A DNA stretch of 64,000 bases from Alcanivorax limicola. Lineage in GTDB: Bacteria > Pseudomonadota > Gammaproteobacteria > Pseudomonadales > Alcanivoracaceae. Under the pieces are notes generated by a model that was not told the DNA's origin, did no database searches, and saw nothing but the letters and a program-made list of their open reading frames with translations. The stretch spans positions 1,023,955 to 1,087,954 of the forward strand of contig NZ_JAIOUB010000001.1 in the NCBI RefSeq assembly GCF_019931215.1, given 5' to 3'. Numbering within the stretch: position 1 is the first letter of the stretch; the number at the start of each line of letters is the position of its first letter. Shown here piece by piece: positions 14,266 to 36,513 of this stretch. The position numbers and the translations under genes were made by a program.

Positions 14266-14299
14266 TAGCGATAGCGCGCTTTTGGCGTTCATCGTGGAT

Positions 14300-14696
14300 G
14301 GGAGGTTCGTTCCGGGCGTCTTCCATTCCTTGTTGGTTTGGTGGTTGTGGCCCTCGGGGGGCGGGTACAGGTTTTCAGGACCCGCCGTAAACCCATCCCT
14401 GGGGGCTTGTGTTCGACATCCTTGTCTCACACAGTCCTGAAAACCTGTACCCGCCCCCCGAGGGCCGTCACGCGCAGCCCGGTTAACAGCCTCGATGCCA
14501 ACTGACGGGTTTGTTCCTCCAGAAAGTTGCTATAACCACCGTGATTCGAATCTACTGCCAGCGTTGAGCCGGGGTGCGCCATGGAGGGACCTCTTTGGCC
14601 AGGGATGGCCAAAGCGCGAGCGCCCAGGGACGGCTTGAGCGGTCCCGGAAGGGCGCACCCCGGCTCAACGCGTACTCGATGGAAGGTGACCAACCC
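14300..14696 (+). repeat. structured repeat element, copy A (two long hairpins)
   Basis: Non-coding element of about 397 nt between pyrC and the convergent DUF3096 gene; its partner is at 36118-36513 in the same orientation. A hand alignment gives about 45 differences over about 360 positions. Hairpin 1 pairs 14349-14381 with 14434-14466 (33 perfect pairs, 52-nt loop). Hairpin 2 pairs 14561-14580 with 14652-14671 (20 perfect pairs) and encloses smaller stems, including 14593-14601 with 14606-14614 closed by a GGGA loop. No U-run follows either hairpin, so it is not an ordinary terminator. The 34 nt before it hold nothing I can see; the 89 nt after it hold only a weak 7-bp inverted repeat (14698-14704 with 14754-14760). 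Confidence 0.9.
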
Positions 14697-14785
14697 GCAG
14701 AGGAGCCACCTACCTTTTGGTTGACCCACAAGTGGTCATCACAGGCAAACACTTCCTCTGATCCGCGATGAACCTTGTGAAAATA

Positions 14786-36069: not shown

Positions 36070-36117
36070 AACGTGCTGTAGCTGCGGGCCTTTCCTGATA
36101 TTCATCGCAGAGTAGCC

Positions 36118-36513
36118 GGGAAGTTTTTTTCCTGGTGTTTTTCATTCTGCTTTGTCTGGTGGTTGTGGCCCTCGGGGGGCGGGGATGTATTTTCAGGACA
36201 CGCCGTAAATACGTCCCTGTAGGCTTGTGTTCGACATCCTTGTCTCACACAGTCCTGAAAATACATCCCCGCCCCCCGAGGGCCGTCACGCACAGCCCAG
36301 TTAACAGCTCCCAGCCAACCGGCGGCTTTGTTCCTCCAAAAAGTTGATAAAACCACCGAACTCAGACTCTACTGCCAGCGTTGAGCCGGGGTATGCCCTG
36401 GAGGGACCTCTTTGGCCAGGGATGGCCAAAGCGCGAGCGACCAGGGACGGCTTGAGCGGTCCCGGAAGGGCATACCCCGGCTCAACGCGTACTCAATGGA
36501 GGGTAACCCACCC
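36118..36513 (+). repeat. structured repeat element, copy B (two long hairpins)
   Basis: Second copy of the element at 14300-14696, same orientation, again between the 3' ends of convergent genes. Hairpin 1 pairs 36167-36199 with 36252-36284 (33 perfect pairs). Hairpin 2 pairs 36378-36398 with 36468-36488 (21 perfect pairs). Relative to copy A, five pairs of hairpin 1 and two of hairpin 2 differ and all seven are changed on both arms. The GGGA-capped inner stem of hairpin 2 is identical in both copies. Similarity fades at about 36513; the 83 nt to the next gene contain only a weak inverted repeat (36517-36522 with 36553-36558). Confidence 0.9.

Follow-up and report, generated by a model that had tools for sequence, protein, structure and literature searches.

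The window, by which we mean the whole stretch of 64,000 nucleotides of the Alcanivorax limicola genome that was analysed, contains two copies of a non-coding element. The first follows a plus-strand gene of the amidohydrolase family, which looks like a dihydroorotase gene, and is followed on the minus strand by a small open reading frame, recognised by eye, and the gene for a universal stress protein. The second copy has on one side an endonuclease III gene (plus strand) with a small open reading frame and on the other a minus-strand gene of the aspartoacylase family. Reading and alignment of the DNA confirmed both copies at the positions proposed from the sequence alone, 14300-14696 and 36118-36513. 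Copy 1 nevertheless reaches beyond these limits, since the probable whole element spans 14286-14774 on the plus strand, with outer terminal inverted repeats (TIRs) at both ends. The left TIR (14286-14308) has 7 mismatches in 23 positions to GGTTCATCGCGGATGAGCGGGAA, a weak match at the limit used, and the right TIR (14752-14774) has 4 in 23. In copy 2, for which the limits 36118-36513 (plus strand) were kept, the left TIR is degenerate (36099-36121) and the right one was not recognised.

Each window copy consists of two homologous branched-hairpin modules in opposite orientation. Hairpin 1 is homologous to the reverse complement of hairpin 2, and both are built of an outer stem followed by two small hairpins. 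The strand that presents the ANGGAY loops, in sites that read C-ANGGAY-G, is the minus strand for hairpin 1 and the plus strand for hairpin 2, and is treated here as the RNA sense. In copy 1, module 1 (14349-14466, minus) has perfect arms of 33 bp and scores 99.1 bits (14360-14453, minus) with R1, a covariance model built in this work; its two GGA hairpins, recognised by sequence and fold, lie on the minus strand at 14415-14426 (GAC-AAGGAT-GTC) and 14392-14403 (CCC-AGGGAT-GGG). Module 2 of this copy (14561-14671, plus; R1 61.0 bits, 14570-14664, plus) has perfect arms at 14561-14580 and 14652-14671. Its first GGA hairpin (14593-14614, plus; CTTTGGCC-AGGGAT-GGCCAAAG) was again found by sequence and fold, and its second GGA site (14624-14633, plus; CC-AGGGAC-GG) has a stem of 2 bp only and gives no GGA hairpin in the lowest-energy fold. 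Copy 2 repeats this plan with module 1 at 36167-36284 (minus; 33-bp perfect arms; R1 96.5 bits, 36178-36271, minus) and module 2 at 36378-36488 (plus; 22-bp perfect arms; R1 64.9 bits, 36387-36481, plus). By inspection, tandem GAs are present in module 1 (GTGTGAG..CGAACAC) and absent from module 2.

The sequence-only reading had described two perfect hairpins in each copy, of 33 and 20-21 bp, and had claimed that all seven differences noted in them between the copies were compensated on the other arm. The arms of hairpin 1 are indeed perfect over 33 bp in both copies (14349-14381/14434-14466 and 36167-36199/36252-36284), and its five differences (pairs 18 and 20-23), like the two of hairpin 2 (pairs 16 and 17), are all compensated. 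Hairpin 2 is also perfect in both, the first copy having 20 such pairs and the second 22, and at its edge position 21 is A opposite G in copy 1 and C-G in copy 2, an uncompensated difference that had been overlooked. Compensated changes in a small inner hairpin (CCC..GGG vs TAC..GTA) had been missed as well. The folds are very stable, with z from -8.0 to -13.4 over the six strands folded and, for each strand, 0 of 200 shuffles as stable. In the lowest-energy folds of the window copies, five of the eight GGA sites form the expected small hairpin. Three second sites do not, namely that of module 2 in either copy and that of module 1 of copy 2; this count speaks against the CsrA-docking reading developed below.

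At the Rfam thresholds the window has no match, and to this extent the earlier statement that no known family could be recognised stands. Below them it does not: the TwoAYGGAY family (RF01731, gathering threshold 43 bits) matches module 1 of copy 2 with 42.6 bits (36163-36288, minus; E 1.3e-5) and module 2 of copy 1 with 28.2 bits (14554-14678, plus). Four of the 18 own-genome loci scanned (out of 26 places) gave five matches, at 44.3 (L028, above the threshold), 42.6, 37, 35.6 and 33.2 bits, and 2 of 18 loci from relatives gave 36.6 and 33.5 bits; at threshold, the 18 loci of the relatives yielded one tRNA only. All eight matches, that of copy 1 included, fall on the strand that was predicted, and this speaks against a mere artefact of the long stems. 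Long perfect stems do attract unrelated microRNA models (mir-2545 with 41.1 bits, mir-584 on both strands), and these matches, like the mere 28.2 bits of copy 1, count against a TwoAYGGAY-type reading. The microRNA families themselves (mir-2545, mir-584, mir-342 and others) were rejected as long-stem artefacts, the host being a bacterium, the scores far under their thresholds and some matches on both strands. In 145 genomes of the order, RF01731 had matches in 23 and matches above the threshold in 13, several genomes being matched many times. The element is thus a divergent relative of TwoAYGGAY, and the proposal of a wholly new family, which the sequence-only reading had tied to the lack of any match to a known one, falls with the copy that passes the threshold.

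TwoAYGGAY was listed in 2010 with a function then not known (PMC2864571), was later predicted to bind CsrA (PMC4333381), and has received a structure update (PMC11701678). In our own reading of the alignments, the family and the element have in common an outer stem, an AG..CGG junction and a pair of inner hairpins whose loops are AYGGAY-like. Tandem GAs are noted for the family in PMC4333381; module 1 has GA/GA, and module 2 lacks tandem GAs. Sequence and covariation place the two (A)NGGAY sites of the element, too, in small hairpins enclosed by a longer stem, and the lowest-energy folds do so for 5 of the 8 window sites. The differences are that the loops are ANGGAY rather than AYGGAY, and that the modules occur as mirrored pairs in a dispersed repeat with outer TIRs, the stems being unrelated between genera. 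Several genomes were found here to contain multiple copies of TwoAYGGAY itself, most of them in pairs of minus-then-plus order. Among the open-access papers listed for TwoAYGGAY/RF01731, or for CsrA in connection with REPs, MITEs or mobile repeats, none dealt with dispersed or paired copies or with dispersed mirrored pairs with species-specific stems. What was already known is the family and its predicted binding of CsrA, and what appears to be new is the dispersed mirrored pairs with species-specific stems.

Alignments of modules from many loci extended the evidence for pairing beyond the window. In a set of 26 diverse modules (A2), picked partly by the CANGGAYG motif, by arm pairing and by eye, 23 of 26 pairs had changed on both sides, and the covariation score was 0.863 against 0.189 in shuffles and at most 0.186 with slid partners; leaving out 6 of 32 modules by eye (a duplicate, a decayed copy and four divergent ones) may have raised the covariation. 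The number of pair types in A2 was less clear, 39 of 500 shuffles being as high. A further 41 modules from 35 loci, found with the model (A3), had 97.8% paired cells and a score of 1.043 against 0.227 in shuffles, while changed pairs and pair types were not above the shuffles (187 and 126 of 500 as high). In A3, of which 10 modules from 6 loci had been found by a GGA-containing pattern, GGA is present in 40 of 41 first loops and 41 of 41 second loops, and the C-G closing pair in 41 of 41 for both. Because motif-based picking entered A2, part of A3 and the mismatch count given below, the invariance of the loops is partly the product of choice. Even so stated, the GGA loops and the AGC..GCG junction are constant while the stems are replaced.

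Further support for maintained pairing came from copies of module 1 in four genomes of the genus, which were found by their core sequence, independently of arm pairing; 46 of them were complete (5 of 51 distinct copies were dropped for incomplete arms). The two arms of one copy differ on average at 1.15 of 30 positions, compared with 6.6 between copies; for the 17 module-1 copies of the A. limicola genome alone the corresponding values are 1.9 and 6.9. Further copies with uncompensated stem changes, which had been named in advance as evidence against selected pairing, exist as a minority: 34 of the 46 have perfect inner arms of 30 nt, 6 have one mismatch and 6 have two or more.

The earlier suggestion of a structured RNA or DNA element under selection for pairing therefore holds, and the kind of mismatch tolerated favours RNA. 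Among isolated stem mismatches read on the ANGGA strand, in modules selected for arm pairing and for the CANGGAYG motif, G.U occurs in 38 distinct contexts and A.C in 4 (p 6e-8, a value that ignores kinship); the numbers in a looser count were 32 and 4. Symmetry would be expected if only the pairing of DNA were selected, so that the excess of G.U over A.C points to selection on RNA. The other isolated mismatches on this strand are also unequal, with 16 G.A/A.G against 4 T.C/C.T, and of 148 modules 141 have the more stable fold on the sense strand.

The element had been taken for a two-copy one, which is correct for the 64-kb window, with its four modules, but not for the genome, where copies lie at 26 places. 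BLAST against the own genome gave 70 matches, many of them of one arm to the other, which correspond to these 26 places and one small fragment, and R1 found 40 module matches in the 3.55 Mb, 4 of them in the window. Two contig ends (G000 C1:1-340 and C4:594493-594629) lie inside copies, and the assembly probably broke at this repeat. BLAST over 37 genomes, the own included, had matches in 14; within the genus these were G000 (the own genome), G001, G004 and G005, with no match in G002, G003 and G006. A pattern scan of named genomes found 53 stretches, mainly in Alcanivorax and other Alcanivoracaceae, and also in Haliea, Parahaliea, Sediminihaliea and other gammaproteobacteria. In a sample of the class, R1 matched 69 of 369 gammaproteobacterial genomes, the A. 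limicola genome among them, which represent 62 of 272 genera, many genomes with at least 11 modules; in a sample of the phylum it matched 21 of 299 genomes, none labelled as outside the class, the non-class share of this sample not being stated. Across the carrier genomes the stems are largely unrelated in sequence, yet paired. Plasmid and phage records had no match to the element.

In three sister species (G001, G004 and G005), the gene junctions that hold the two window copies are empty; other parts of their genomes do contain the family. These empty sites mean that the window copies were gained or lost at their junctions among the sister species. The order of the modules is nearly fixed: minus-then-plus in 15 of 15 adjacent own-genome pairs and in 25 of 25 pairs within 400 nt in the wider locus set, a count that left out L146 (a duplicate of L005) and a two-strand match at L063 and kept separate three pairs more than 400 nt apart (two plus-minus, one minus-plus). 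In the RF01731 list for the 145 genomes of the order, 12 of 13 pairs, counted by hand, have this order, the exception being a plus-then-minus pair in G154 (C2). Other exceptions are a same-strand array in G008, a minus-minus neighbour in G508 and a plus-plus neighbour in G711, and all four weigh against the explanation favoured below. The array (G008 C1:94422-95646) consists of six module matches on one strand at a spacing of about 227 nt, single modules following one another in tandem.

Fuller copies have outer inverted repeats (GGTTCATCGCGGATnAGCGGGAA), perfect over 23 nt in L037, weaker in others and not recognised in many, and such TIRs also occur in other genera. In the own genome, the TIR pattern (at most 3 mismatches) occurs at 6 places, all in this element, and a search with it revealed no autonomous element or partner transposase with the same ends. 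As to target-site duplications, the flanks are T/A-rich, for example TTTTTTAT / TTTTTCAT in L035, and not consistent. A RAYT was considered as the mobiliser and rejected, as neither of the two PF01797 genes present is flanked by the element within 1.5 kb on each side. In L050 (1009-1860), a RAYT-like gene is, as judged by eye, flanked by an inverted repeat of its own (GGTCAGGTCTCACATT), which is unrelated to the element.

These features bring the element close to two known kinds of repeat. Like REPs, BIMEs and REPINs, it forms dispersed extragenic palindromes and inverted pairs that remain palindromic despite sequence change (PMC2817692), but its units of about 110-120 nt are branched and have RNA-strand asymmetry, and no RAYT is flanked by them. 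Like MITEs of the ERIC/RU kind, it is small and non-coding, has TIRs in its fuller copies and is present or absent at given sites; unlike them, it carries conserved RNA modules, and no partner transposase or clear target duplication was found. The main alternative to the explanation favoured below is that nothing more is involved, namely that the element is selfish MITE/BIME-like DNA in which the hairpins serve transposase recognition, the GGA loops are part of what is recognised and CsrA is irrelevant. The many dispersed copies, the outer TIRs in fuller copies and in other genera, the empty sites in sister species and the nearly fixed inverted order, as in transposon ends, would all suit it. 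We nevertheless think it unlikely, although it deserves serious attention, because the inequality of G.U and A.C, and of G.A and T.C, on the ANGGA strand is unexpected from DNA pairing only, the TIR pattern leads to this element and to no autonomous partner, the PF01797 genes lack flanking copies and target duplications are not clear.

The position of the copies relative to genes suggests another alternative. Of the 107 flanks that could be assigned at 60 loci of the genus, 82 turn the 3' end of a gene towards the element (nominal expectation 50%), and of 52 two-sided cases 31 are convergent and 4 divergent (nominal expectation 25%). These counts show a 3'-end bias roughly, as the flank rule is a crude longest-ORF one that erred in at least one known case, by reversing the orientation of the gene to the right of window copy 2; 5 of the 60 loci had no assignable element, 3 without a right flank were dropped, and 20 of the 26 own-genome places were used. 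The stems might thus act as a barrier at 3' ends, shielding upstream mRNAs from 3' exonucleases or separating convergent transcripts in the manner of REPs and BIMEs, with no need for CsrA. The bias toward 3' ends and convergent genes (by the crude rule) and the extremely stable stems agree with this idea, and termination and mRNA stabilisation have been hypothesised for REPs (PMC3733652). We consider it improbable, as a plain hairpin would suffice for such a barrier and the constant GGA loops and AGC..GCG junction are left unexplained.

Double changes in adjacent pairs occur in blocks, and one compensated length change of 1 nt was observed; both fit template switching, which may be a source of the double changes. 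That template switching during replication (quasipalindrome correction) keeps the arms identical without any selection, in an element that is decaying junk, is very improbable, because this mechanism, described in PMC8794818 and offered there also for asymmetric base-pair frequencies, would account for the blocks and the length change but not for loops that are constant across the class on unrelated stems, nor, unless switching is strand-biased, for the one-strand excess of G.U.

The loops themselves direct attention to the global regulator CsrA. The SELEX consensus for this protein is RUACARGGAUGU, mostly in six-base loops, and a dimer bridges paired sites at 10-63 nt, with an optimum above 18 (PMC7652899). 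In 147 of 148 distinct modules the starts of the two GGA sites are 22-25 nt apart, having been sought within 18-36 nt. Judged from sequence, the six-base GGA loop, its C-G closing pair and the paired spacing fit CsrA/RsmA sites, less well for the second sites. The csrA gene is present in the own genome (G000:C1:929711), in 31 of 31 good genomes among the 37 relatives (own included) and in 35 of the 37 overall. In the class sample, CsrA was found in 64 of 69 module carriers and 249 of 300 non-carriers (p 0.04, kinship uncorrected), the 64 and 5 carriers being hand-read from two listings taken as the same draw; with good genomes only, the numbers are 56 of 57 carriers and 224 of 257 others (p 0.01, kinship likewise uncorrected). 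Five carrier genomes, one of them good (G357) and four incomplete, had no CsrA match, which counts against a role of this protein. In seven own-genome copies (L033, L036-L040 and L045), about 75-80 extra structured nucleotides (~77) replace one GGA loop, in either module, and these copies also tell against CsrA docking; on inspection, the insert looks like a module core that is degenerate and lacks GGA. The sponge RNAs CsrB, RsmY and RsmZ have several GGA hairpin loops and paired sites too (PMC4383904 and PMC7652899), but they are products of dedicated sRNA genes, whereas the elements described here are dispersed, lie near gene ends and have no recognisable promoter. For Alcanivorax, a paper on sRNAs describes two other CsrA-related sRNAs (PMC9788540).

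The explanation that we favour, with middling confidence, is that the element, dispersed and MITE/BIME-like, carries paired TwoAYGGAY modules, which would provide CsrA docking sites in 3' UTRs, with titration of CsrA as their summed effect. Two TwoAYGGAY-type modules, inverted so that the minus-sense one precedes the plus-sense one, would be placed mostly downstream of genes. As neither window copy contains a promoter-like site, their RNA would probably come from read-through transcription of neighbouring genes. Intrinsic terminator sites number 0 in copy 1; copy 2 has four terminator-like sites against 1.0 in shuffles, two of 5 bp inside hairpin 1, one downstream, and one of 9 bp directly upstream (36115-36136), which could block read-through into this copy and is counted against the explanation. 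A transcript entering from either side would include the antisense module first, after which the sense module would form, with a long stem that presents two C-ANGGAY-G sites so spaced that one CsrA/RsmA dimer could bridge them. From each copy, the 3' UTR of the neighbouring gene would thereby gain a place for CsrA to dock, with an effect on the stability of that mRNA, and the copies at the 26 places together may titrate CsrA. The copies would spread as non-autonomous mobile DNA, and their stems would be free in sequence while pairing was kept by selection on RNA, probably aided by template switching.

A wider proposal, which we put forward as speculative and rather doubtful, is that a widespread class of gammaproteobacterial mobile RNA elements seeds paired CsrA docking modules in many 3' UTRs and that transposition thereby both titrates CsrA and rewires its regulon, TwoAYGGAY being the visible part of the class. 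Dispersed, mirrored and high-copy modules, situated mostly at gene ends in many Gammaproteobacteria, would recast TwoAYGGAY as a mobile regulatory class. The dispersed modules would also make the prediction that TwoAYGGAY binds CsrA directly testable, and the element would be a natural test bed in which stems stay perfect while their sequence turns over. At two loci (L041 and L093), the two arms carry different stem alleles, which suggests recombination between copies.
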